Origin: Pseudomonadota bacterium
GTDB lineage: Bacteria > Pseudomonadota > Alphaproteobacteria > SHVZ01
Length of the DNA: 57,342 nt
NCBI GenBank assembly: GCA_016195085.1
Contig: JACQAG010000030.1
Span: 1-57,342, forward strand
Direction of reading: 5' to 3'
Positions 338-28,746 of the stretch are shown here, one piece after another. Numbering within the stretch: the first letter of the stretch is position 1; every line of letters begins with the position of its first letter. The translations under genes were made by a program, and so were the position numbers. A model generated the notes under the pieces. That model made no database searches, was not told the DNA's origin, and saw nothing but the letters and a program-made list of their open reading frames with translations.

Positions 338-1576
338 CTAGATCGTCTTGGCCTTCGCGTATTTCGCTGCCCGCCAGCTCCCTTCGCTGAGGATCCCATG
401 CAGACGCTGCATGACGTCCCAAATGTCGACGTAACGGTGATAGAGGGCGCTGAGGCCGAAGCGAATGCTGTCCGGCGGCCGAAACGAGGCGACGACGCCG
501 GCATCGGCAAGCGCGCCGACGACGGCGCCACCGGAATTGTGGCGGAGCGCCACGAAGCCGCCGCGCTCGTCCGGGGAAACCGGGCTCGCCACCTCGATCG
601 CCGCCTCGCCTTGTCCTTCGCGCGCGAGGCGAATGAGGAGATCGCCCAGTTGCGCATGCTTGGCGAACATCAAGGCCGGATCTGCTTTGGCCCAAATGTC
701 GAGAGCGGCCTCCATGACCGCATTGGCGATCACCGAGGGCGTGCCGACCAGGAAGCGGTTCGGGCCCTCGCCGGGCGCGTAGTCGGTGCTGAAGCGGAAG
801 GGATCGGCGTGGCCCATCCAGCCGGCAAGGGCCGGGCGCACAGCTTCCTGATGGCGGCGGGCGACGAATAGATAGGCCGGCGCGCCCGGACCGCCGCAGA
901 GATATTTGTAGCCGCAGCCAACGGCAAAGTCGGCGGCGGCGGCATCGAGCTCGGCTGGCACGGCGCCGGCTCCATGGGACAAGTCCCAGACCGTCAAAAT
1001 CCCTTTCCCATGCGCGGCCGCGGTCAGCCCTCGGATATCGAGCCGCCGCGCCGTCCGGTAGTCGACCTGGCTCAGATAGAGGACCGCGGTCGTATCGGTG
1101 AGGGCAGGCTCGATCGCCGCGCCGTCGGGGACGAGGTGCAGATCCAGTCCAGCCAGGAGCGTTTGCAGGCCCTGGACCACATAGAGATCGGTAGGAAACG
1201 TCCCGACCTGGGAGACGATCCGGCGCCGCCCCGGCTTGAGCGCGAGCGCGGCGGAGAGCGCCTTGAAGAGATTGATCGATGTCGTGTCGCAGACCACGAC
1301 CTCGTCAGGAGCGGCACCGATGAGCGGCGCCAGCTTGGCGCCGAGGCGACGCGGCGCATCCAGCCAGGTCGAGCTGCTCCAGCCGCGCCGGCGGAGGTTC
1401 CGCCACTCCTCGAGAATCCGATCGACCCGGGCGGGCGCGTCCACCGGCATGGCGCCGACGGAATTGGCATCGAAATAGAGCGTGCCCGCTTCGCCGGCTG
1501 CGAACCGACGGGAGAGTGCGGCAAGCGGATCGGCGGCGTCGAGGGCTTCGCAATCGGAACGCGTGAGCCCAGGCAT
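338..1576 (-). CDS. kynU: kynureninase
   Basis: PLP-dependent hydrolase of about 412 residues, the usual length. It cleaves L-kynurenine or 3-hydroxykynurenine to anthranilate or 3-hydroxyanthranilate plus alanine in cytosolic tryptophan breakdown. Visible family marks are an FPTD substrate/PLP-loop motif at residues 127-130, the PLP-contacting aspartate in VWDLSHGAGA (D198, H201), and the Schiff-base lysine in GYKYLCGGPGAPAYLF (K224). It starts at ATG 1576, 19 nt after the DUF2817 gene stop, and is the last gene of a four-gene minus-strand set. No kynA or kynB gene is in the window, so substrate supply must come from elsewhere or from the upstream importer component and hydrolase (inference). 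Confidence 0.93.
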   Translation of the reverse strand: MPGLTRSDCEALDAADPLAALSRRFAAGEAGTLYFDANSVGAMPVDAPARVDRILEEWRNLRRRGWSSSTWLDAPRRLGAKLAPLIGAAPDEVVVCDTTSINLFKALSAALALKPGRRRIVSQVGTFPTDLYVVQGLQTLLAGLDLHLVPDGAAIEPALTDTTAVLYLSQVDYRTARRLDIRGLTAAAHGKGILTVWDLSHGAGAVPAELDAAAADFAVGCGYKYLCGGPGAPAYLFVARRHQEAVRPALAGWMGHADPFRFSTDYAPGEGPNRFLVGTPSVIANAVMEAALDIWAKADPALMFAKHAQLGDLLIRLAREGQGEAAIEVASPVSPDERGGFVALRHNSGGAVVGALADAGVVASFRPPDSIRFGLSALYHRYVDIWDVMQRLHGILSEGSWRAAKYAKAKTI

Positions 1577-1595: not shown

Positions 1596-2687
1596 TCAGC
1601 GCTCAGCGAGGCCGGTCAGAGCCTCGTGGATCATCGCATTCGATTGCCGCAAGACCATGGCGCGCCACTCGGGAGCTGACGGGTAGAAGCGTTCCTTGAG
1701 CTCGGCTCGGATCTCCCGCCCTCTCTGCGAATCCGGGTCGCCGTGCTGGAAGAACCAGTTCTCCTCTCTCAGCGCGCGCAGCATTTCGCGATTGCGTTCG
1801 GTGCGCATCTCCACGAGGCAGCTCGTCACCCGCGCCCCGGTCAGGATCTGCTCAGGCACATACATGAGCAGGCCGGGGACTTCGGCTTGGTTGTGGCCGT
1901 GCTCGGCCTGCATGTCTTCCATCGCCGTGCAGTGCTCGAACCAGCGACGGGACCGGATTCCGGCCTTCTTGTCGTCGACATACAGATCGCAGAAGCCATA
2001 CACTCCGCCGCCGGTGTGGTAGTCGATGACGCAGATGTCCTTTGCTCGCCCGAGCCATTTTGCGACGATCTCGCGCAAAGTTCGATTGGACCAGACTGCC
2101 CGCTCGCCGCCGTAGAAGGTGCCCTTGGGGTTGATGTATTGGCCGCCGTGAATGGCCTTGGGCAGGAAGTCGTCCTTGGGGTTTCCGTAGTAAGCGGCAA
2201 TAGCCGCATCGGCGCGGGTTAGAACCTCCGATGACCATTCGAGCGGATTCACCCACTCTTCGAGCGCCGCGTAGTCGGCATTCACCGGCCGCTTCTTGCC
2301 ATGGTCGATGAAGTTGCGGTTGAGGTCGACATTGTCCTCGTTCACGCGTCTGACCCAGGCGAAGCCATGGGGGTTGATCGCGTGAACGAAGACCACGGCC
2401 ATGTCGGGCGGAAGATCGTGCCCGGCATGGCCGGCCCCGAGCCAGCCCGTGTGGCAGCCGGAGCCGCAGAAGCCCTCGGCGCCATGCGTCCCGCTTATGA
2501 GCACTAGGAGCTTGGCTGCGTCCGCCGGGCCCACGCAGCCAACATCGGTCCACAGTCCTTCGCCCGACGGGCCCTTTGCCGGGTTCTCGTAGCTCGCGAG
2601 CGTCGAGCCGCCTGCTCCCTGCAGCGCGTGAAGGAACTTCTCCCTCGCCTCGCGAAAGGACTCGGCGAAGAACTCCGATGCCGCCAT
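1596..2687 (-). CDS. M14-like zinc hydrolase (DUF2817)
   Basis: A 363-residue protein of the DUF2817 branch of M14 carboxypeptidase/aspartoacylase-like hydrolases. The zinc site is visible: H68-x-x-E71 in GTHGAEGFCGS and a later histidine in VIDYHTGGG. The substrate-binding R/N motif is VNEDNVDLNRNF (residues 115-126). A glutamate in SCLVEMRTER sits where M14 enzymes have their catalytic Glu. No signal peptide is evident, so it is probably cytosolic. It lies between a peptide-binding protein gene (13 nt upstream) and kynU (19 nt downstream). This suggests hydrolysis of an imported amide, peptide or N-acyl amino acid. The exact substrate is unknown. Confidence 0.82.
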   Translation of the reverse strand: MAASEFFAESFREAREKFLHALQGAGGSTLASYENPAKGPSGEGLWTDVGCVGPADAAKLLVLISGTHGAEGFCGSGCHTGWLGAGHAGHDLPPDMAVVFVHAINPHGFAWVRRVNEDNVDLNRNFIDHGKKRPVNADYAALEEWVNPLEWSSEVLTRADAAIAAYYGNPKDDFLPKAIHGGQYINPKGTFYGGERAVWSNRTLREIVAKWLGRAKDICVIDYHTGGGVYGFCDLYVDDKKAGIRSRRWFEHCTAMEDMQAEHGHNQAEVPGLLMYVPEQILTGARVTSCLVEMRTERNREMLRALREENWFFQHGDPDSQRGREIRAELKERFYPSAPEWRAMVLRQSNAMIHEALTGLAER

Positions 2688-2700
2688 GCGGATCGCCTCT

Positions 2701-4281
2701 CTACTTCACCCGCACATAGCGCAACGGGAAATACGCATCCGATTGCTGCACCAAGTCGATATTGGTCTTGGCCGCCCAGACGATCTCCTGCTGCATGATC
2801 GGCACGGTGGGAATGTCGTCGCGGACGATCTTGAGGGCTTCGGCGATCATCGTGCGGCGCTTCGCCGGGTCGAGCTCCACCTGGATCTGATCGGTCAACG
2901 TGTCGACCCGAGGATTCGAATATCCACCGACATTGAACAAGCCTTTGGGAGAGCCCGGGGCCCGGCTCATCAACAGATTGAGCAGATAGTTGTGAGCGTC
3001 GCCCGTGGCTCCACCCCAGCCGACATAGTACAGGCTGGTCTCATAGGGTGGATTGATCAGCTTCACATATTGCGAGAAGGGCTGAACCCGGAGCTTCACC
3101 TTGATGCCGACCTTCGCCAGCATGGCGACGGCCGCGGTGCAGATCGCCTCGTCATTCATGAAGCGGTCGTTCGAGCAGTCCATGCCGGTCTGAAAGCCGT
3201 TGGGATAGCCGGCATCGGCCATCAGCTTCTGCGCCTTGGCGAGGTCGTGCTCGGGCTTGACGTTGAGCGCCGGATCGAAGCCCTCGACACCCGGCCCGAC
3301 CATGAGGTAGTTGGGCACGCCGAAGCCACGCATGACCACGTTGTGGATCGCATCGGTGTCGATGGCCATCCGCATGGCCTCGCGCACGCGCTTGTCCATG
3401 AACGGGTTCTTGCCCTTGACGTCGCCATCGAACAGCTCAGCGTGGCCCATGTCGATCCCGAAATACATCGTGCGCCACTCCGGCGTCTGCAGCACCTTGA
3501 GATTGGGACGCGCCTGGACCTGGGGAACGCTCGAGACCGGCAAGCCGTAGATCATGTCGACCTGACCGGAGACCAGCGCCGCCACCCGGGTCGCCGGATT
3601 GGCGAGCGGGGTGAAGGTGACCTCGGTCAGATTGTGCTCGACCTTGTCCCACCAACTGGGATTGGGCTCGAGCACGGCCACGCTGTCCGCGGCGCGCGAG
3701 CGCAGCTTGAAGGGACCGGTCCCCATCGTGTTGGTCGAGGCGTAGGAGGCTTGGTTGCTCTGGAGGCTGGTCGCTGCGGCCACGCCATGCTGCTCCGACC
3801 AAGCCTTCGACATGATGAGCCAGCCGGTGATCTCGAAGGGTAGGATCGGATCCGGACCCTTGGTGACGAAATCGACCGTATGGTCGTCGACCTTCTTCAC
3901 CTCGGCCACGGGCGCCAGCACGCCGGCCAAGGCCGAGCCCGGCCCCTTCGTCCTTGCCGCGGAGAACACCACGTCATCAGCGGTGAAGGGCGAGCCGTCT
4001 TGGAATTTGACGTTCTGCCGGAGCTTGAAGCGCCAGACTTCGGAGGAAATGTTTGACCATGATTCTGCCAGCGCCGGCTCCAGCTTCATGTTCCGGTCGC
4101 GCCGGATCAGCGGCTCGTAGATGTTTGCCAGAAAGGAGATCGTAGGAAGGACGTTGCGGCTATGCGGGTCCATCGTCCCCGGATCGGAGTCGGCGGCCCA
4201 TTGGAAGTTGGCGGCACCGGCCGAAGCGGCACCGAAGATCGAGGCGGCTGCGATCAGAGCAAGGCCGGGACGGTAGGTCAT
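2701..4281 (-). CDS. ABC transporter periplasmic substrate-binding protein, family 5 (peptide type)
   Basis: A 526-residue DppA/OppA-class binding protein. The N-terminus has a signal peptide (hydrophobic LALIAAASIFGAAS, cleavage after about AGA). The family-5 opening is ADSDPGTMDPH and is followed by the typical NIYEPLIRRD and VKFQDGSPFTADDVVFS segments. I start at ATG 4281 because GGAGGAG lies 3-9 nt upstream (4285-4291). A TTG start 12 nt further out would include the ribosome binding site. No permease or ATPase genes are adjacent, so it is an orphan binding protein that must share membrane components from another locus. Its place before the hydrolase and kynU suggests a peptide- or amino-acid-like ligand (inference). 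Confidence 0.88.
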   Translation of the reverse strand: MTYRPGLALIAAASIFGAASAGAANFQWAADSDPGTMDPHSRNVLPTISFLANIYEPLIRRDRNMKLEPALAESWSNISSEVWRFKLRQNVKFQDGSPFTADDVVFSAARTKGPGSALAGVLAPVAEVKKVDDHTVDFVTKGPDPILPFEITGWLIMSKAWSEQHGVAAATSLQSNQASYASTNTMGTGPFKLRSRAADSVAVLEPNPSWWDKVEHNLTEVTFTPLANPATRVAALVSGQVDMIYGLPVSSVPQVQARPNLKVLQTPEWRTMYFGIDMGHAELFDGDVKGKNPFMDKRVREAMRMAIDTDAIHNVVMRGFGVPNYLMVGPGVEGFDPALNVKPEHDLAKAQKLMADAGYPNGFQTGMDCSNDRFMNDEAICTAAVAMLAKVGIKVKLRVQPFSQYVKLINPPYETSLYYVGWGGATGDAHNYLLNLLMSRAPGSPKGLFNVGGYSNPRVDTLTDQIQVELDPAKRRTMIAEALKIVRDDIPTVPIMQQEIVWAAKTNIDLVQQSDAYFPLRYVRVK

Positions 4282-4342: not shown

Positions 4343-5410
4343 TCAGTAGTTTATCGACGGATTGTCCCCGGGATAGATCACGCCGGCGACCAGCATGCCC
4401 GCGGGATCGGTGCATTCCAGGGAGTGGATCTGCTTGCGCGGAAGAAAGATCACGTCGCCGGCTCGGACCGGCGCCTTGCGCGCCTCGGTCCACATGGCGC
4501 CCGAGCCGCTCATGATGATCAGGGATTCCTCGTAGAGATGGCGGTGGGGTGCCGCCTTCGACTTCGGAATCTCGCCGATGAATTGCGTGACGACGGTCGA
4601 TCCCAAAGTCTTGTCGACGAGCATCTGGAAGAACCGATCGCCCATGCGATTGCGGCCGTCCGGGTCGATGCCGATGGTGCGGCGCGGCTTGGCCGCGTCG
4701 AAATACGCCGGCATCGCCTCATGCCAGAGGACGCCGTCGGCCGACGGGCAGGCCGCCGCGAACACCTTGAGCAGCACATCCTTGGCGTTGCAAAACTGGA
4801 ATCCTTCGCCCGGACATACATAGACACCGGTATTCGGCGAAACGGCAAACGCGCGCTCGCCGATGACGAGTTCGCCCTCGCCCTCGGAAACGAACAGGAT
4901 CACGTGCCGGTTGCCAAATCCGACGATCGGAGAGTGGCCGCGGGCGCATTCGAAGTAGTAGAGCGATTGATGGAGAGCCCCGTCCTGCTTGTTGATGACG
5001 GGACGATGGGACAGCACGCCCCGGCGCTCGAGGCTCGCGGCCGGGATGGTGCAGACATAGCAGCCGCCATCCAGAAGCGCCTTGCCGTCCTTGTCCGCGT
5101 CGATCGTGGGAATGGCGCGGTTCTGGGCGCTGTTCGGGTCATCCTCCTCATAGGTGGCGGAGAGGTTGTTGTGCGCTCCGTCGCAGAACGGCTTCGTCTT
5201 GCTGTGCTTGCAGCCGCAGAACAGCACCTCTTCGCCTTGCTGCTCAGCCTTATAGGCGATGGGGCGATAATCGGTTCCCTTGTGGGACCCATCGCAGAAG
5301 GGCTGGGTCCGGCTGCGTCCGCAGGCGCACCAAAAATAGGTCTTTCCGGCCTCGAGCTCGTAGTAGTACGGCTTCTTCTTGGCAATGACGACGTCGACGG
5401 CGGAGGACAT
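4343..5410 (-). CDS. two CDGSH iron-sulfur domains fused to a double cupin
   Basis: An unusual 355-residue fusion. Residues 28-43 (CACGRSRTQPFCDGSH) and 65-80 (CGCKHSKTKPFCDGAH) are two complete CDGSH motifs, C-x-C-x2-[ST]-x3-P-x-C-D-G-[SA]-H, each expected to bind one [2Fe-2S] cluster. The rest looks like two cupin barrels. The second has a clear metal-type signature (APHRHLYEESLIIMSGSG, then a late FLPRKQIHSLE). The first has VILFVSEGEGELVIGE but fewer obvious metal ligands. The start at ATG 5410 is chosen because the first CDGSH domain begins just after it and GGAG lies upstream. An ATG at 5458 is possible. It is first in the minus-strand set with the binding protein, DUF2817 and kynU. It may be an Fe-dependent oxygenase or a redox sensor; this is inference. 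Confidence 0.8.
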   Translation of the reverse strand: MSSAVDVVIAKKKPYYYELEAGKTYFWCACGRSRTQPFCDGSHKGTDYRPIAYKAEQQGEEVLFCGCKHSKTKPFCDGAHNNLSATYEEDDPNSAQNRAIPTIDADKDGKALLDGGCYVCTIPAASLERRGVLSHRPVINKQDGALHQSLYYFECARGHSPIVGFGNRHVILFVSEGEGELVIGERAFAVSPNTGVYVCPGEGFQFCNAKDVLLKVFAAACPSADGVLWHEAMPAYFDAAKPRRTIGIDPDGRNRMGDRFFQMLVDKTLGSTVVTQFIGEIPKSKAAPHRHLYEESLIIMSGSGAMWTEARKAPVRAGDVIFLPRKQIHSLECTDPAGMLVAGVIYPGDNPSINY

Positions 5411-5598
5411 GCTCCACTCCTGAATCGCCCCGGCCGGCGCGTCCGCGGGGGGCCTCATCTTGCATTCCCTGGAAGGGGTTGTAACCTGGAAAAAACGCCT
5501 GTTCGGCGGCAAATGTCGGTTGATACTGCCAATTCCGCCCTCGCTCCGGCAATGCTCCACCAGGATTGCTTCGGGCTGGCCTAAAGGACTCACGCGAT

Positions 5599-7689
5599 AT
5601 GGCTGAGGGCGTTCGCCACCGTCTTGCCGTCGATATCGGCGGCACCTTCACCGACGTGGTCTTGGAGGGGCCGAAGGGGCGGGTGACGACCAAGGTCCTG
5701 ACCACGCCCGCCGCACCTGAGCTGGGGGTCATCGACGGGATCGAGGCGGTCCTGCGGGCAGCCGCACTCGCTCCGGAGGCGATCGACCTGTTCATTCACG
5801 GAACGACGCTTGCGACCAATGCACTCATCGAGCGCAAGGGCGCCAAGACGGCCTTCATTACAACCGCAGGCATTCGCGACATCCTGGAGATGGGCTACGA
5901 GAAGCGGTTCGAGCAATATGACGTCTACATGGACCGGCCGGCGCCCTTGGTCGAACGCGAGCTGCGGATCGGTGTCGGCGAGCGGGTGACCGCTCGCGGC
6001 CGGGTTCTGAGGCCGCTCGACGAGGAGGATGTCCGACAGGCAGCGCTCCAAATCAACGAGAGCGGCGCCGAGGCGGTCGCCGTCGGCCTCATCCACGCCT
6101 ACGCCTATCCGGAGCACGAGCGCCGCGTCCGCGAGCTGCTGGCCGGTCTTCTGCCTAAATCCGTGACCATTTGTCTCTCGAGCGAGGTGTGTCCGGAGAT
6201 CCGGGAGTATGAGCGCTTCTCGACGACCTGCGCCAACGCCTATGTCCGTCCGCTGATGGCGGGTTATTTGACCCGGCTGCGCGTGCGTCTGGATGCGATC
6301 GGTCTTCGTTCTCCGCTTTTCCTCATGATGTCGGGCGGTGGTCTCACGACCCTGGAGCACGCCACGCGATTTCCCATTCGTCTCGTCGAGTCCGGTCCGG
6401 CCGGCGGCGTCATATTGGCCGGCCAAATCGCCCGCGAATGTGCGCTTGATGCCGTGTTGGCCTTCGACATGGGGGGTACGACGGCAAAGATCTGCCTCTT
6501 GGATGACTACGAGCCGGAGCGGGCCCGGCGCTTCGAGGTGGCGCGAATGTATCGCGATCTCAAGGGCAGCGGCTTGCCGGTGCGCATCCCCGTCATCGAG
6601 ATGGTGGAGATCGGCGCCGGCGGCGGCTCGATTGCCCGGGTCGACGCCATGCAACGCATCACCGTGGGTCCCGACAGCGTCGGGGCCGATCCCGGCCCGG
6701 CCTGCTACGCTCGCGGCGGTTCGAAGGCGACCGTCACCGACGCGAATGTCGCCTTGGGTCGCATCGATCCCCAGCGCTTTGCCGGTGGACGCATTCCCCT
6801 CGACCCGGAACGAGCGACGGCGGCGATCGCCGGCGATGTCGGGGCCAAGCTCAAGCTCGATGGGCACTGGCCTGCCGCCGGCATATCGGAGATCGTCGAG
6901 GAGAACATGGCCAATGCGGCTCGCGTGCATGCCATCGAGCGCGGCAAGGTGATCGATCGCTACACCATGGTGGCGTTTGGCGGTGGGGCGCCTTTGCACG
7001 CGGGCCGCCTCGCCGAGAAGCTTGGCATCATGCGCGTGATCGTGCCGGTCGGTGCCGGCGTCGGCTCCGCCATCGGCTTTCTGCGGGCACCCATTGCCTA
7101 TGAGGTGGTGCGGAGCTGGCGGGTGGCGTTCGACGAGCTGGATCTTGCAGCCGCCAATCGGCTCTTGACCGAGCTCGGCACGGAGGCCCGCGGGGTCGTA
7201 GCGGCCGGGGCCGCAGGGGCGCCGATCAGGGTCACGCGGTTGGTGGATGTTCGTTATGTCGGCCAAGGCCATGAGCTGCCGATGAGCCTCTCCGAGCGGA
7301 CTCTGGTCAAAGCGGACTTCGACGATCTCCGGCAGCGTTTCGAGGCGCGCTATCGCCAGATCTACGGGTTGCATCTGCCGGCAATGGCGGTGGAGATCGT
7401 CACTTGGTCGGTGACGGCCTCGACCATCCTGGCCGAGACGGCGAGGGTATCGTCCATCCCTCGCCGCCCGGTCGAGAGGTCGCGGGAGCGACGTCCGGTC
7501 TACGAGCCGGCGTTGGGAGGATTGGTCGAGATGCCGGTTCATAGGCGCAGCGACCTCGTGCCCGGCGTCAGCATCGAGGGGCCGGCGGTCATCGTCGAGG
7601 ATGAGACGACCACGATCGTCCCCTCGAGCTTCGCCGCGATGATCGATCGCAGCGGCTATATCGTCATGGAGGCCAAGAGCCATGTCTAA
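5599..7689 (+). CDS. hyuA: hydantoinase/oxoprolinase subunit A
   Basis: A 696-residue ATP-grasping subunit of the hydantoinase/5-oxoprolinase/acetone carboxylase-like family. It carries the acetate-kinase-type phosphate loops AVDIGGTFTDVV near the N-terminus and FDMGGTTAKICLL in the middle, and the HGTTLATNALIERKG motif. With subunit B it would use ATP to open a cyclic amide such as a hydantoin or 5-oxoproline. ATG 5599 is preferred because residues from there fit the family and AAGGA lies about 10 nt upstream. An ATG 33 nt earlier has no such support. The stop overlaps the start of subunit B by 8 bp, so translation is coupled. It is divergent from the CDGSH-cupin gene across 188 bp. Confidence 0.92.
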   Translation: MAEGVRHRLAVDIGGTFTDVVLEGPKGRVTTKVLTTPAAPELGVIDGIEAVLRAAALAPEAIDLFIHGTTLATNALIERKGAKTAFITTAGIRDILEMGYEKRFEQYDVYMDRPAPLVERELRIGVGERVTARGRVLRPLDEEDVRQAALQINESGAEAVAVGLIHAYAYPEHERRVRELLAGLLPKSVTICLSSEVCPEIREYERFSTTCANAYVRPLMAGYLTRLRVRLDAIGLRSPLFLMMSGGGLTTLEHATRFPIRLVESGPAGGVILAGQIARECALDAVLAFDMGGTTAKICLLDDYEPERARRFEVARMYRDLKGSGLPVRIPVIEMVEIGAGGGSIARVDAMQRITVGPDSVGADPGPACYARGGSKATVTDANVALGRIDPQRFAGGRIPLDPERATAAIAGDVGAKLKLDGHWPAAGISEIVEENMANAARVHAIERGKVIDRYTMVAFGGGAPLHAGRLAEKLGIMRVIVPVGAGVGSAIGFLRAPIAYEVVRSWRVAFDELDLAAANRLLTELGTEARGVVAAGAAGAPIRVTRLVDVRYVGQGHELPMSLSERTLVKADFDDLRQRFEARYRQIYGLHLPAMAVEIVTWSVTASTILAETARVSSIPRRPVERSRERRPVYEPALGGLVEMPVHRRSDLVPGVSIEGPAVIVEDETTTIVPSSFAAMIDRSGYIVMEAKSHV

Positions 7690-9358
7690 GGATTCGCTCA
7701 AGGCCATTCGTCTGCAGGTCATGTGGAACCGGCTCATCGCCGTGGTCGAGGAGCAGGCCCAGGCTTTGCTGCGTACCGCCTTCGGTCACGTGGCGCGCGA
7801 GGCCGGCGATCTGTCCGCGGGCGTCTATGACGTGGCCGGGCGCATGCTGGCCCAGGCGGTCACCGGCACGCCAGGCCATGTCAACACCATGGCCGCCGCC
7901 GTTGGGCATTTTCTCGAACGCTTCCCCGTCGCTACGATGGCGCCCGGCGACGTCTACGTGACCAACGATCCTTGGCTGGGTACCGGCCATCTCTTCGACT
8001 TCGTCGCGGTCACCCCGGCCTTTCGCGACGGCAGGCCCGTCGCGTTGTTCGCCTCCACCTGCCACATGGTCGATGTCGGCGGCATCGGTTTCTCCGCGGA
8101 TGCGAATTCGGTCTTCGAGGAAGGCACGCTGATCCCGCATCTTCGGCTGCGCGCCGGCGATCGGCTGAATGAGGACATATTGGCGATCGTCACCGCCAAT
8201 AGCCGCAACCCGACGGAGGTCCGCGGCGACATTCTGTCATTGGTGAGCTGCAACGACGTTGGGGTCGCCAGGCTTCTCGGCATGATGGCGGAGTTCGACC
8301 TCACCTCGATCGATGAGCTGGCCCGGCACGTGATCGAGAAATCACGAGAGGCGACCTTGTCGGCGATCAAGCGGGTGCCGCCCGGGATCTATGGGACCGA
8401 GATGCAGCTCGACGGTTACGATGCGCCGATCCTGCTCCGGGCGAAGATGACCGTGAGCGAGAGGGAGATCGTCGTCGACTATGCCGGCAGCTCGCCGGCC
8501 TCGCTCTTCGGCATCAATTCGCCGAAATGCTACACGGACGCCTATACCGTCTTCGGCCTCAAATGCGCCATCGCGCCCAGTGTTCCCAACAATGCCGGCT
8601 CGCTCGCGCCGTTCAAGGTGCTGGCGGAGCCAGGCTCCATCGTCGACCCGGTGCGGCCCTCGCCGGTCACCGCTCGCCATGTCGTGGGCCAGATGCTTCC
8701 CGATGTCGCCTTCGGTTGCCTTGCCCAGGCGTTGCCGGACGCGGTTCCGGCAGAGAGCGCCGGCAGCATTTGGGTTCTGGCCATGGCCAGCGCCCATGAG
8801 CGGGTCGCCGATGCGCGTCTGAGCAATGCCGCACGCTTCAATGTGATGAATGTCGGCCTCGGCGGGGTCGGGGCTCGGCCGGGCAAGGACGGGTTGTCGA
8901 CCACGGCCTTTCCGAGCGGCGTCGGCACCATTCCCATCGAGGTCACCGAAGACCAATGCCCGCTCGTCTTCTGGCGCAAGGAGTACCTCCGCGACTCCGG
9001 CGGGCCCGGCACCTATCGCGGCGGCCTCGGGCAGGTGATCGAAATCGGCAACAGCGAGGAGGCGGCGTTCACCATCTCGGCGGCGACCTTCGATCGGATT
9101 CGGTTTCCGCCGCGTGGGCGCAATGGCGGCCATTCCGGCGGGGTAGGGGCGGCTCGCCTGGGATCGGGTGCGGCGCTCGCCACGAAGGCAACCCATGTGG
9201 TGCCGGCCGGCGACCGGCTGGTGGTCGAGCTACCTGGCGGCGGCGGCCTCGGGGAGCCAACCGAGCGGCCTCCCGAACGCGTGAAGGCGGATATCGCCGC
9301 GGGCTTGGTATCGCCCGAAGCAGCCCTCAGGGTCTATGGCCTCAAGAGCGGAATGTAG
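7682..9358 (+). CDS. hyuB: hydantoinase/oxoprolinase subunit B
   Basis: A 558-residue HyuB-family protein, the partner of subunit A. It has the family opening LQVMWNRLIAVVEEQAQALL, the metal/ligand segment GDVYVTNDPWLGTGHLFDF, and the late PGGGGLGEP-like segment (residues about 516-524) with glycine-rich sequence ahead of the C-terminus. The length is normal. Its first codons lie inside the end of hyuA. A new gene starts 8 nt after its stop. Whether the cyclic substrate is a hydantoin, 5-oxoproline or another lactam or ketone cannot be told from sequence. Confidence 0.92.
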   Translation: MSKDSLKAIRLQVMWNRLIAVVEEQAQALLRTAFGHVAREAGDLSAGVYDVAGRMLAQAVTGTPGHVNTMAAAVGHFLERFPVATMAPGDVYVTNDPWLGTGHLFDFVAVTPAFRDGRPVALFASTCHMVDVGGIGFSADANSVFEEGTLIPHLRLRAGDRLNEDILAIVTANSRNPTEVRGDILSLVSCNDVGVARLLGMMAEFDLTSIDELARHVIEKSREATLSAIKRVPPGIYGTEMQLDGYDAPILLRAKMTVSEREIVVDYAGSSPASLFGINSPKCYTDAYTVFGLKCAIAPSVPNNAGSLAPFKVLAEPGSIVDPVRPSPVTARHVVGQMLPDVAFGCLAQALPDAVPAESAGSIWVLAMASAHERVADARLSNAARFNVMNVGLGGVGARPGKDGLSTTAFPSGVGTIPIEVTEDQCPLVFWRKEYLRDSGGPGTYRGGLGQVIEIGNSEEAAFTISAATFDRIRFPPRGRNGGHSGGVGAARLGSGAALATKATHVVPAGDRLVVELPGGGGLGEPTERPPERVKADIAAGLVSPEAALRVYGLKSGM

Positions 9359-9365
9359 GTGAGCC

Positions 9366-9794
9366 ATGGCCGACACGCTCACCCATGCGGTCTCGATCGA
9401 GCTGGCGGCGCCGGCGGCCAAGGCCTTTGCCTTCATGTCGGACCCGGCCAAGCTCGACCGCTGGTCATTCGGGACCTGGCGCACGGTGCTGCACGAAGGT
9501 GGGCTGGTCGAGGGCCAATCCATCTTCGATGGCGCCGTCACCTGGGTCCGTATCGACGCCGATCCAAAGCGCGGCGTCATCGATTATCACTTGGGCAAGA
9601 GCAAGGACGCGCTCACCCCGCGGATCATGGCGCGCGTGGTGCCCGGCGACCGGCTCGAGCTCGGAGCCGAGGCATCGGTGCTGACCTTGATCGCCTGGCG
9701 CCTTCGAGGCATGAGCGACGAGCGCTGGCGACGGTTGACGACGGCGCACGAGTTCGAGGTGGTCCTGATCAAGTCGCTGATCGAGGCCGTCTGA
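9366..9794 (+). CDS. SRPBCC-family ligand-binding protein
   Basis: A 142-residue single-domain START/SRPBCC (polyketide cyclase-like) protein. The N-terminal strand THAVSIELAAPAAKAFAFMSDP followed by KLDRWSFGTW is the usual beginning of this fold. The end is the long helix around LTTAHEFEVVLIKSLIEA. No catalytic residue can be named. It is co-directional with hyuAB and 7 nt behind hyuB, with a GGTGAG ribosome site overlapping the spacer. This suggests it handles the same substrate or its product (inference). Confidence 0.75.
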   Translation: MADTLTHAVSIELAAPAAKAFAFMSDPAKLDRWSFGTWRTVLHEGGLVEGQSIFDGAVTWVRIDADPKRGVIDYHLGKSKDALTPRIMARVVPGDRLELGAEASVLTLIAWRLRGMSDERWRRLTTAHEFEVVLIKSLIEAV

Positions 9795-12196: not shown

Positions 12197-12997
12197 TCAG
12201 GGGCGTACGGCGGGAGTCTCCACGGGTAGCTCGCGGGCGCGCCACATCAAATACAATTCGAGGTTGACGTACTCGGGCGCACCAAAGGGATAGGACTGGG
12301 CGCGCATGCCGACGAGGCAGTTGCGGAGCCGTCGCTGCAGCGAGCCGAGGGCCTGCCATTCGAGCCGGTAGAGCGGATAGCCCGTGGGATGCGCCTGGGG
12401 CACCGGGGCGCCTGCCAGCTTTTGACCCCAATTATCGTCGTGGCACTGGGCGCAGGAGAGATTGAGCTGTCCCTGACGCTCCTCGAAGAGCGCGCGACCT
12501 CTCTCGATGAACGGCTTGATCCGATCGTCCTCGACGATGCTGATGGGCTGGCCGCGGGACTGCCGTCCGACATAGGCGGTCAAAGCCAACAGCTCCTTGC
12601 TCTCGAACGGCAAGGGCGCCGCCTGCTGCTTCTCAGTGCGGCAGACGTTGATGCGCTCTTCTAGATCGACCGGTCGACCATGCGCGGCATCGAAGGCGGG
12701 GTAGCGTGCAGCAACGCCTTTCATGCTCACCCGGGCGTCTTGGTGGCAATCGGCGCAAGACTTGTCCCGGGATCCTTCCTTCCGGCTCCAGAGAGCCTCG
12801 CCGTCGAGCACCCACAGCATGCCGGGATTGGCGGTGTCGTCGTCCTGCATCGCCCGAGTCTCGCGCCCCATGAACTCGTAGCCTGACCGCCGGTCCGCGA
12901 ACGGGATTTCCGTGGCGCCTGCCGCAGAAGCGAAGCCCAGCGCCGGAAGCAGGCATTGGAGGAGGGTGGCGAACCGACGGACCCAGCGGGCGATCAT
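12197..12997 (-). CDS. soxA: sulfur-oxidation diheme cytochrome SoxA
   Basis: A 266-residue exported cytochrome c with a signal peptide (about residues 1-29). It has two CxxCH sites, CADCH (81-85) and CAQCH (182-186), so it is a diheme form. The conserved RSGYEFM...RAMQDDDTANPGM N-terminal motif and the RRLRNC motif are present. C227 in the latter is the cysteine that forms the active-site cysteine persulfide ligand in characterised SoxA. With SoxX it would join a reduced sulfur compound to the SoxY cysteine in the periplasm and pass electrons on. It starts in a 4-bp ATGA overlap with soxZ. It is the last sox gene of the operon. Confidence 0.94.
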   Translation of the reverse strand: MIARWVRRFATLLQCLLPALGFASAAGATEIPFADRRSGYEFMGRETRAMQDDDTANPGMLWVLDGEALWSRKEGSRDKSCADCHQDARVSMKGVAARYPAFDAAHGRPVDLEERINVCRTEKQQAAPLPFESKELLALTAYVGRQSRGQPISIVEDDRIKPFIERGRALFEERQGQLNLSCAQCHDDNWGQKLAGAPVPQAHPTGYPLYRLEWQALGSLQRRLRNCLVGMRAQSYPFGAPEYVNLELYLMWRARELPVETPAVRP

Positions 12998-13314
12998 TCG
13001 ACGGCGATGGCAGCAGACTCAATCATCGCGAAGCCATTGTCGCCGGACCAGCGGAAGGCGATCGTGCCGCTCTCGCTCGCAACCGTATGGAAGGTAATGA
13101 AAGGATTGGCGGCGATCGCCGGGGCGAGCGTGGCGCGGAATATTTCCTCGCCGTTGTATGTGCACACGAACAGATCGATGATGTCGCGCGGAATCATTTC
13201 GCCGTTGTAGCCGACGCGAAAGCCGGTCTCCATGGGATGGGAGATCAGCGTCTTGATCTCGATGATCTCGCCGCGTTTGGCCTTGGCCGGGACGTTGATC
13301 AGAGCCCGCGCCAT
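12994..13314 (-). CDS. soxZ: sulfur carrier complex subunit SoxZ
   Basis: A 106-residue immunoglobulin-like protein that dimerises with SoxY. Typical SoxZ sequence is visible: ALINVPAKAKRGEIIEIKTL, HPMETGFR and IIDLFVCTYNGEEIFRA. It has no signal peptide, as usual, because it is exported bound to SoxY through the Tat route. I use ATG 13314, which overlaps the soxY stop as TGATG. A GTG one codon upstream also fits. Its stop overlaps the soxA start by 4 bp, so soxY-soxZ-soxA are translationally coupled. Confidence 0.94.
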   Translation of the reverse strand: MARALINVPAKAKRGEIIEIKTLISHPMETGFRVGYNGEMIPRDIIDLFVCTYNGEEIFRATLAPAIAANPFITFHTVASESGTIAFRWSGDNGFAMIESAAIAVE

Positions 13315-13808
13315 CACTTTATGACCTCGATGCAGGCCGCGACCGTCACGATGACGTCGGCGCTTTCGGTCCAGAACGAGCCATCGCTCATCTCCGCGAT
13401 GGCGACGACACGCTGCGCATCGGCAAGCTTGATGCGTGTGGCGAACGTCGCTTTGCCGGCCCGCGGTCCGAGGCTCACGGAGATCACATGAGGCTGCGGG
13501 TTCTTCTCGTTGAAGACATGGATGGCCTTGACGTGATCGACGTCGGTCATCGGGCTTTCGACTGCGACCGTGACCGGCACAGTATTGCCGTTCTCGACCA
13601 AAGGCGGCAAATCGAGGCTGATGCGCCCACGGCGCAGCTGCGCCTCGCCGATCACCTCCTGAATCGCCGCCTGCATGGATTCCGGCGTGGCAAGGCTGGT
13701 CTTGGCGGCGAACACCGACAGGAGCCCGGCACCGGCGGCCAGGCGCGCCGACCCGATGAGGAAGCGGCGTCGGCTCGTGCCCGAAATTGCATGATCCTCG
13801 CTGGTCAT
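13314..13808 (-). CDS. soxY: sulfur carrier protein SoxY with atypical C-terminus
   Basis: A 164-residue SoxY with a twin-arginine signal (SRRRFLIGS, residues 12-20). The body is typical (DLPPLVENGNTVPVTVAVESP, KAIHVFNEKNPQP, RIKLADAQRVVAIAEMSDG). In the thiosulfate-oxidising Sox system the carrier cysteine lies in a C-terminal GGCGG arm. Here the chain ends VTVAACIEVIK. A cysteine is kept (C159) but the flanking glycines are replaced and five residues follow it. This could be a distinct SoxY subgroup with a stiffer arm. The gene lies 10 nt after soxX and overlaps soxZ by one base. Confidence 0.9.
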   Translation of the reverse strand: MTSEDHAISGTSRRRFLIGSARLAAGAGLLSVFAAKTSLATPESMQAAIQEVIGEAQLRRGRISLDLPPLVENGNTVPVTVAVESPMTDVDHVKAIHVFNEKNPQPHVISVSLGPRAGKATFATRIKLADAQRVVAIAEMSDGSFWTESADVIVTVAACIEVIK

Positions 13809-13818
13809 CGTCTCCGCT

Positions 13819-14316
13819 CTATTGGCGCAGCGTCTTCAGGTAGGCGACCACGTCCTCGACCTGCTCGGCGGTCAGCAAGGCCTTGCCGACTGCGCTGGGC
13901 GCCACGCGGGTCAAGCCTTCGGTTCGGTAGTAGGGCGGCATGATGGTATCAGGGTTGACGCGGCTCGCATCGACGATCCTCAGACGCAGTTGACCTTCCG
14001 ACCAGCGATTTCCCGCTCCCTCCATGTTCGGCGCCAAGGTTCCCTGGAATGCCTCGTCGGGAAAGGGGCCGCTGTGGCACAGGAGACAGAGCCCGACCTG
14101 CCGATTGCCGACGATCAGGCGCCCCTTGGCGGGATCTCCCGCCATTCCCGTCAAGGAGGCAGGAATGGCATCCTCCACCACAATATAATGGCGAAGGCCT
14201 TCTTCGGCGAGGGCGACCGGGCTCGAAGGGCCGGCCAAGGCCGCGAGCAAGGCGAGCCCAAGCCAGGCACCGCGGCTAGCCGAATACTTCGCCGGTGATC
14301 GTCTTGAACCAACCAT
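13819..14316 (-). CDS. soxX: sulfur-oxidation cytochrome SoxX
   Basis: A monoheme cytochrome c of 165 residues, partner of SoxA. A signal peptide is formed by GAWLGLALLAALAGPSSP with cleavage near ALA-EE (about residue 38). The heme site is CLLCH (C77, C80, H81) and the likely axial methionine is M126 in DTIMPPYY. I start at ATG 14316, which lies inside the end of the preceding flavoprotein gene (41-bp overlap). The reading frame is open further upstream, but that stretch lacks signal-peptide character. The ending EQVEDVVAYLKTL is the standard last cytochrome helix. Confidence 0.9.
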   Translation of the reverse strand: MVGSRRSPAKYSASRGAWLGLALLAALAGPSSPVALAEEGLRHYIVVEDAIPASLTGMAGDPAKGRLIVGNRQVGLCLLCHSGPFPDEAFQGTLAPNMEGAGNRWSEGQLRLRIVDASRVNPDTIMPPYYRTEGLTRVAPSAVGKALLTAEQVEDVVAYLKTLRQ

Positions 14317-15556
14317 CGGCAAAGCCGGCTTCCTGGGCGCGCACGGATGGCGGCGCATCCAACGGGCTGGTGCCGCCGGCACCTTCGATGTCGGCGAGGA
14401 TACCGTTGGCGGGCCGATAGACGCCGGCGACGGTGATGCCATAGTCAGGTGCCACCAGGCTATAGCAGGTGTTGATCAGCCTCGGCTCCGGGGGCGTGGC
14501 GCCGTCCATGAGGTTCACCACAGCGGCCGCGCAGACCTTCGCCTGGGCGTTGGCGGAGAAGGCGGACTTCGGCATGGCGCCGGCGATCGAGGCATCGCCG
14601 ATCACATGGATGTTGGGTTGCAAGCTCGAGGCGAAGCTCACCGGGTCGATGGGGCACCATCCGGTTTGGTTGGCAACACCGGCGAGCTCGGCGATGCGCC
14701 CCGCCTTCTGTGGGGGAATGACGTTGGCGACATCGGCCTTGTACTTGTTGAAATCGGTCGTCAAGGTCAGCGAGGCCGGATCGACCGAAGTCACCTTGCC
14801 GCCCGAGGACAAGGAGACCCACTCGATGTGGTTGGGGTAGAGCTCTTTCCAGGCATTTTGGAAGAGGCGCTGCTTGGAGAAGGCATCCTTGGCATCGAGG
14901 ATGATGAGCTTCGATTTCGGCTTCTTGGTCTTGAGGTAGTAGGCGATCAAGCTCGCCCGCTCGTAAGGACCGGGGGGGCAGCGGAATGGATTGGCCGGCG
15001 CCGAGATGACGACGATGCCGCCATCCTCCATCGACTCGAGCTGGCGGCGCAGCAGGAGGGTCTGCTCGCCTGCCTTCCAGGCATGGGGCATGCGCTCGGC
15101 GGCGGCTTCAGTATACCCGGGGAGCCCTTCCCATCGGAGGTCGATTCCCGGGGCCAGAACGAGCCGGTCATAGGCAAGCCGCCCGCCATCGGCCAAGGTC
15201 ACGCTGCGGGCCAGGGGATCGACCGCCGTCGCTGCGGTGAACGCCAGGGCGATTCCGTCTTGCGCGAGCCGGTCATAGCCGAATTGCTGCTCCTTGAGCT
15301 CGCGCAGACCGGCGATGACGCCATTGCTGAACGGGCAGGCGGTGAAGCTGCGGTTGGCTTCGACCAGCGTCACCGTCAGGCGCGGCTCGAGCCGCTTCAA
15401 CGTCCTCGCGCAGGTGGCGCCGGCAAAGCCGCCGCCGATGACGACGACGCGGCCGCTTGCCCCTTGGCCGAAGGCCGGTAGCGGCAGGAGCGCGCTCGCC
15501 GCTCCGGCCGTTACTTTCCGTAAGAAATCGCGACGTGACGTCCAGCGCCTGCTCAT
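14276..15556 (-). CDS. soxF: flavocytochrome c sulfide dehydrogenase flavoprotein (SoxF/FccB type)
   Basis: A 426-residue FAD enzyme that oxidises sulfide in the periplasm and hands electrons to a cytochrome c subunit. It has a Tat signal (SRRDFLRKV), the FAD fold VVVIGGGFAGATCARTL, and the FTACPFSNGV segment whose cysteine is the covalent FAD attachment site in characterised FccB. The two redox cysteines of the family are visible in FRCPPGPYER and GWCPIDP. The start at ATG 15556 gives the Tat peptide; an open frame upstream of it reads through the cytochrome gene and is not real. It overlaps the upstream cytochrome by 4 bp (ATGA) and soxX by 41 bp. Confidence 0.92.
   Translation of the reverse strand: MSRRWTSRRDFLRKVTAGAASALLPLPAFGQGASGRVVVIGGGFAGATCARTLKRLEPRLTVTLVEANRSFTACPFSNGVIAGLRELKEQQFGYDRLAQDGIALAFTAATAVDPLARSVTLADGGRLAYDRLVLAPGIDLRWEGLPGYTEAAAERMPHAWKAGEQTLLLRRQLESMEDGGIVVISAPANPFRCPPGPYERASLIAYYLKTKKPKSKLIILDAKDAFSKQRLFQNAWKELYPNHIEWVSLSSGGKVTSVDPASLTLTTDFNKYKADVANVIPPQKAGRIAELAGVANQTGWCPIDPVSFASSLQPNIHVIGDASIAGAMPKSAFSANAQAKVCAAAVVNLMDGATPPEPRLINTCYSLVAPDYGITVAGVYRPANGILADIEGAGGTSPLDAPPSVRAQEAGFADGWFKTITGEVFG

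Positions 15557-27033: not shown

Positions 27034-28746
<1,713 letters not shown>

Follow-up and report, generated by a model that had tools for sequence, protein, structure and literature searches.

The gene described here lies on contig JACQAG010000030.1 of an alphaproteobacterial genome (assembly GCA_016195085.1, lineage SHVZ01). The term window refers to the whole stretch of DNA that was analysed, which is 57,342 nucleotides long. In this window, a single gene encodes two CDGSH iron-sulfur domains and a double cupin in one chain. The genes and features at the locus are listed below.

338–1576, minus strand: divergent kynureninase paralogue, a class-V PLP enzyme (TIGR01814, 242.8 bits; PF22580, KYNU_C)
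1596–2687, minus strand: DUF2817 protein (PF10994, 8.1e-95)
2701–4281, minus strand: family 5 (peptide/opine type) solute-binding protein, adjacent to the fusion gene in its operon (PF00496, 1.1e-83)
4343–5410, minus strand: CDGSH-CDGSH-bicupin fusion protein, 355 residues (ATG with ribosome-binding site; Pfam)
4346–4639, minus strand: C-terminal cupin barrel of the fusion, residues ~258–355, with a predicted metal site H289, H291, E295 and H329 (Pfam, alignment, fold match)
4640–5080, minus strand: N-terminal cupin barrel, residues ~111–257, metal ligands lost (second Cupin_2 stretch, strands, alignment)
5159–5392, minus strand: tandem CDGSH (CISD type 6-like) module, residues ~7–84 (Pfam PF09360; match to PDB 3tbn)
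5599–7689, plus strand: hydantoinase/caprolactamase-alpha-like ATP-dependent amidohydrolase (NF050156, 4.6e-143, below cut-off)
7682–9358, plus strand: hydantoinase/caprolactamase-beta-like subunit (NF050157, 3.2e-43, below cut-off)
9366–9794, plus strand: SRPBCC/polyketide-cyclase-like small protein (PF10604, 8.3e-07)

The reading frame of the fusion runs from 5410 to 4343 and its ATG is preceded by the sequence AGGAG. An alternative in-frame GTG is found further upstream at 5593; the ATG is preferred as the start because both the homologues and the ribosome-binding site back it. Pfam searches of the 355-residue chain returned zf-CDGSH (1e-20) and Cupin_2 (3e-13), each in two stretches and above its gathering cut-off. 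Together with the predicted bicupin fold, these matches bear out the sequence-only reading from which this work started, including its assignment of the C-terminal half to the cupins. An AlphaFold2 model, computed with the family alignment as input, reached a mean pLDDT of 83 and a pTM of 0.80. The bicupin was predicted with high confidence, whereas a large share of the CDGSH part scored poorly (pLDDT 45–76 across residues 11–90), so that the position of this module with respect to the cupins is of low confidence.

A frameshift joining two separate genes had been named as one finding that would overturn this layout. A search for proteins with the same domain order yielded 31 that could be aligned, from Alpha- and Gammaproteobacteria, with homologues 40–71% identical. 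They come from independent assemblies that include the cultured strains Sphingomonas baiyangensis and Novosphingobium sp. KACC 22771. Full-length homologues were found in the family and the class to which the window belongs and on 23 contigs from genomes of Alpha- and Gammaproteobacteria (S. baiyangensis among them), some of these contigs belonging to the same genomes as in the family and class search. Further ones were found on a Novosphingobium replicon and in other Sphingomonadaceae. Among 385 genomes of the class and 169 of the Sphingomonadaceae, every homologue match lies within an open frame of at least 352 codons, and stand-alone bicupin relatives lacking CDGSH domains were not found at E <= 1e-8. 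A tree of 31 fused and 28 free CDGSH modules set the two kinds apart on a single branch (support 100/99), and such a single group of fused modules is consistent with one fusion event. A frameshift or chimera is ruled out by the full-length homologues, the alignment and the tree, and no point in favour of an assembly artefact or an accidental join of two genes was found, which leaves that explanation a negligible probability. The fusion is a genuine bacterial protein with an apparently single fusion origin.

The two CDGSH motifs had been described as complete, and all eight Cys3His ligands are indeed present and invariant in all 31 aligned proteins. The first motif reads C28-x-C30...C39-DGS-H43. 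The second reads C65-x-C67...C76-DGA-H80, a CDGAH variant with a complete ligand set. The two Cys-Cys-Cys-His motifs place the module with the tandem-motif CDGSH proteins (types 5 and 6), and it matches the tandem CDGSH protein of PDB 3tbn at 102.6 bits. The module is thus predicted from its ligands to hold two [2Fe-2S] clusters. It resembles CISD type 6 (MmCISD of Magnetospirillum and human CISD3/Miner2) in its tandem arrangement, spacing and ligands, but type 6 proteins are free-standing, whereas the module in the window is fused to a bicupin and belongs to a group of its own in the tree. A separate CDGSH gene is also present in the window's own genome. Other bacterial CDGSH fusions are described in the main text of the 2011 classification, namely CISD type 5 (a type 6 CISD with the FMN domain of glutamate synthase) and type 7 (CISD with DUF1271; PMC3174974). 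Their partners are an FMN-binding domain and DUF1271, whereas the partner in the window is a pair of cupins; DUF1271 gave no Pfam match to the fusion up to E = 1.

The C-terminal part of the fusion matches cupin-type Pfam families alone. Its metal motif, H289-R-H291-x3-E295-x6-G302 ... G318-x10-H329, follows the canonical 3-His/1-Glu cupin site, and H289, H291, E295 and H329 are invariant in 31 of 31 aligned proteins. At the equivalent columns, the N-terminal barrel carries the non-ligands G164, G166, V170 and F204, with no conserved His or Glu. The histidine-rich metal motif proposed for the cupin therefore stands for the C-terminal barrel, but only one of the two barrels retains a site. As in metal-dependent bicupins, two barrels are present and the ligands of motifs 1 and 2 occur together in at least one of them. 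On the evidence of sequence and model, the N-terminal barrel is predicted to be metal-free and structural, and the C-terminal barrel to keep one intact metal site. The final residues, 347–355 (PGDNPSINY), are strongly conserved in homologues up to Tyr355 and were predicted at low confidence; this tail may serve in closing the active site.

The predicted fold of residues ~92–355 matched solved bicupins with Z scores of 19.5–21.5, differences below 1 being counted as ties. The two-barrel fold is shared with quercetinase YxaG, MncA, oxalate decarboxylase, ureidoglycine aminohydrolase and salicylate 1,2-dioxygenase; these are 9–16% identical to the fusion, in which metal ligands occur only in the C-terminal barrel. 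The likeness to quercetin 2,3-dioxygenase is confined to the fold and to weak sequence similarity, and the named cupin enzymes of NCBIfam gave weak matches, all far under their cut-offs. To our knowledge, none of the known bicupins carries a fused Fe-S module. Cupins are functionally diverse and include isomerases, aminohydrolases and decarboxylases, so a bicupin fold is no proof of oxygen chemistry. The top matches included the ureidoglycine-aminohydrolase-type bicupins EF2996 (Z 21.5) and YlbA (Z 20.8). Since CDGSH clusters are labile and redox-active, they could act as sensors of redox or iron state by which a non-redox cupin enzyme of this kind is switched. We regard such a sensor as unlikely: the Z scores of EF2996 and YlbA are tied with others and their identity to the fusion is only 13–16%. 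Moreover, the MarR, TetR and LysR regulators near the fusion are separate genes that accompany the gene clusters, which makes it unlikely that the fusion is itself a regulator.

The layout had been put forward as one without a characterised example, and none was described in the literature searched. The 2011 classification recognised seven CISD types plus orphans; the partners of fused CISDs named in its main text are glutamate synthase and DUF1271, with no word of cupins (PMC3174974). Cupins are likewise unmentioned in the main text of a 2018 survey of 494 bacterial CDGSH proteins. A literature search for CDGSH with cupin, or for gene clusters of CDGSH with an oxygenase, returned no description of this layout. 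Within the literature covered, the CDGSH-bicupin layout is thus an undescribed combination of known domains.

Downstream of the fusion, the genes for the family 5 solute-binding protein, the DUF2817 protein and the kynureninase-like protein follow in an order that is the same at three other loci (L032, L033 and L036). The caprolactamase/hydantoinase-like pair is transcribed divergently from the fusion. The alpha-like gene is kept beside the fusion in L032–L036, and the SRPBCC/polyketide-cyclase-like gene is also near it in L032–L034, L036 and L037. The divergent pair may have a role in a hydantoinase-type opening of an oxindole. The kynureninase-like protein falls just below the TIGR01814 cut-off (242.8 against 246.4 bits). 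Around its putative PLP lysine it reads YKYLCGGPG for YKYLNGGPG, and the Cys is common to its three closest counterparts. As well as this Asn-to-Cys exchange, HSAG is replaced by HGAG in the protein of the window and in those of L032, L033 and L036. The two exchanges possibly reflect a changed substrate. The canonical kynureninase and the tryptophan 2,3-dioxygenase (TDO) of the window's genome lie on other contigs, unlinked to the fusion. The fusion does head a gene set with a kynureninase-like member, as had been proposed, but that member is a divergent paralogue. Because elsewhere the adjacent gene is often another class-V PLP enzyme, this position by itself gives no substrate.

Two observations elsewhere in the window concern other functions. 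An Rfam match to 5' ureB sRNA (117 bits) at 27188–27473 on the minus strand is antisense to a urease alpha subunit-like frame (27034–28746, plus strand) and is probably conserved urease coding sequence, not an RNA gene. By reading of the translations, sox-like (sulfur oxidation) genes for two c-type cytochromes and SoxY/SoxZ-like proteins were recognised at 12197–14442 on the minus strand.

The neighbourhoods in other carriers vary. A first clustering had suggested kynureninase as a constant neighbour; profile searches and a tree narrowed this to several class-V PLP subfamilies. A true kynureninase adjoins the fusion in L045, L049, L051 and L053, a SufS/kynureninase-like class-V enzyme is near it in L045, L046, L049, L053, L058, L080, L082 and L083, and a TIGR01976-type enzyme in L042, L048 and, by the tree, L040. 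Of 30 loci, several of which end at a contig edge, 16 have a class-V PLP enzyme no more than about 8 kb from the fusion. Other recurrent neighbours are amino-acid or SNF transporters, Xaa-Pro-dipeptidase-like amidohydrolases and TonB receptors. Indolepyruvate oxidoreductase genes stand beside the fusion in two lineages (L032–L034, L036 and L052). The fullest cluster, L045, holds the fusion, a kynureninase, a benzoate-CoA-type ligase, a class-V PLP enzyme, an amino-acid permease, an esterase and PrnB. In L080, the fusion, a class-V PLP enzyme and PrnB are adjacent to one another.

PrnB belongs to the IDO/TDO superfamily (PMC11791213). Carriers of the fusion were searched for TDO (PF03301) and PrnB (PF08933). 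Among 31 non-redundant carriers, TDO was found in 17 and PrnB in 12 (for one PrnB carrier the search covered a plasmid record only). None of those searched for both held both, and two held neither (G066 and G005, the latter 77% complete). The PrnB-family genes without TDO are in carriers G064, G065, G069–G073, G075, G077, G079 and G546 and on replicon W01; such genes without TDO also occur in G449, G489 and G529. Searches of the TDO carriers G185 (class sample), G427, G463 and G567 (family sample) gave no PrnB, and the two never occurred together in any genome checked for both. In the class background of 385 genomes, TDO was present in 68 and PrnB in none, and all seven fusion carriers of that sample were TDO-positive. 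Enrichment of TDO in carriers over this background gave a Fisher p of 4e-6 before correction for kinship, a value that is indicative only because the carriers are related to one another and the effective independent cases are fewer. In an independent sample of 169 Sphingomonadaceae genomes, all five fusion carriers held PrnB (2) or TDO (3). The association is one-sided, since three genomes hold PrnB without the fusion. PrnB adjoins a class-V PLP enzyme in G064, G075 and G546. These results suggest that PrnB homologues are tryptophan oxygenases in catabolism beyond pyrrolnitrin synthesis. They also support the proposed link of the fusion to aromatic amino-acid (tryptophan) breakdown, while its tie to kynureninase holds but is an indirect one. 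Many loci have a kynureninase and no TDO nearby, which had raised the idea that the fusion replaces TDO; it was rejected, as 17 carriers hold TDO elsewhere and most others hold PrnB.

The fusion is probably an as yet uncharacterised, metal-dependent redox enzyme of tryptophan breakdown. A more specific proposal, to which we give a little less than even weight, is that of a metal-dependent bicupin enzyme of tryptophan-derived aromatic catabolism with a CDGSH electron relay. The C-terminal cupin would bind Fe(II) (or Mn), Fe(II) being the probable choice, and would use O2 on an indole, kynurenine or anthranilate-type intermediate derived from tryptophan. Single electrons would travel from the CDGSH clusters to the cupin metal and there either drive oxygenation or return oxidised iron to the ferrous state. 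The place of the enzyme would be in the aerobic breakdown of tryptophan, at a step after the TDO-superfamily oxygenase (TDO or PrnB) or in a route parallel to it, and its partners would be class-V PLP lyases and transporters for amino acids or peptides. Against the scheme, the PLP partner differs between subfamilies, and the TDO and canonical kynureninase of the window's genome are not linked to the fusion.

How might the two cofactors work together? In a stronger form of the proposal, the CDGSH pair would supply electrons in each cycle to a mononuclear cupin iron, and an aromatic ring would be hydroxylated or cleaved, a convergent counterpart of the Rieske oxygenases. The likeness is in working principle only, a His-ligated [2Fe-2S] cluster and a mononuclear metal site in one chain. 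Rieske oxygenases use a Cys2His2 cluster and a helix-grip 2-His/1-carboxylate site, whereas the fusion has CDGSH Cys3His and cupin 3-His/1-Glu ligands in different folds. Rieske and ring-hydroxylating families are absent among its Pfam matches, which sets it apart from the Rieske non-heme iron oxygenases. The invariance of both cofactor sites in one chain of apparently single origin speaks for this form, as does the precedent of mitoNEET, whose CDGSH cluster transfers electrons from FMNH2 to O2 (PMC9490426). It is nevertheless improbable: cupin dioxygenases usually need no external electrons, and the geometry from cluster to metal rests on the low-confidence CDGSH part of the model. The loci examined show no reductase as a conserved neighbour and hence no dedicated electron donor, which slightly favours reactivation or a general donor. 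If this form were true, bacterial tryptophan catabolism would contain a new oxygenase class, in which a CDGSH domain and its electron acceptor share one polypeptide.

Alternatively, the cupin could cleave rings without external electrons, in the manner of 3-hydroxyanthranilate 3,4-dioxygenase or quercetinase, and the CDGSH pair would only maintain or restore ferrous iron. Ferredoxins of the XylT kind do so for catechol 2,3-dioxygenase. The bicupin fold is common to quercetinase and salicylate dioxygenase. Kynureninase exceeded 200 bits in 25 of 27 carrier genomes or records searched, yet 3-hydroxyanthranilate dioxygenase (PF06052) gave one strong match among the 31 carriers, a count that covers carriers alone. 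An anthranilate route would equally account for this near absence, and the benzoate-CoA-type ligase in L045 points to such a route. 3-Hydroxyanthranilate 3,4-dioxygenase is a cupin enzyme of the kynurenine pathway whose bacterial forms hold a second, Cys-bound iron; unlike the fusion, it is a single cupin with a rubredoxin-like site. PF06052 gave no match to the fusion itself up to E = 1. Ring cleavage of this kind is not a likely explanation, and replacement of 3-hydroxyanthranilate dioxygenase by the fusion is retained as a rival only. The simplest mechanism is that of a metal-dependent cupin enzyme in which the CDGSH pair would feed the iron or rescue it.

What CDGSH (NEET) clusters do physiologically remains a matter of debate, also for those of human disease proteins. 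A natural fusion of CDGSH domains with a predicted metal enzyme names a physical partner and turns the role of CDGSH for an enzyme into a bench question on one protein of 355 residues. Furthermore, the fusion is paired with TDO in some carriers and with PrnB in others. This pattern suggests that members of the PrnB family, familiar from pyrrolnitrin synthesis, may take the place of TDO in the ordinary tryptophan breakdown of many bacteria.
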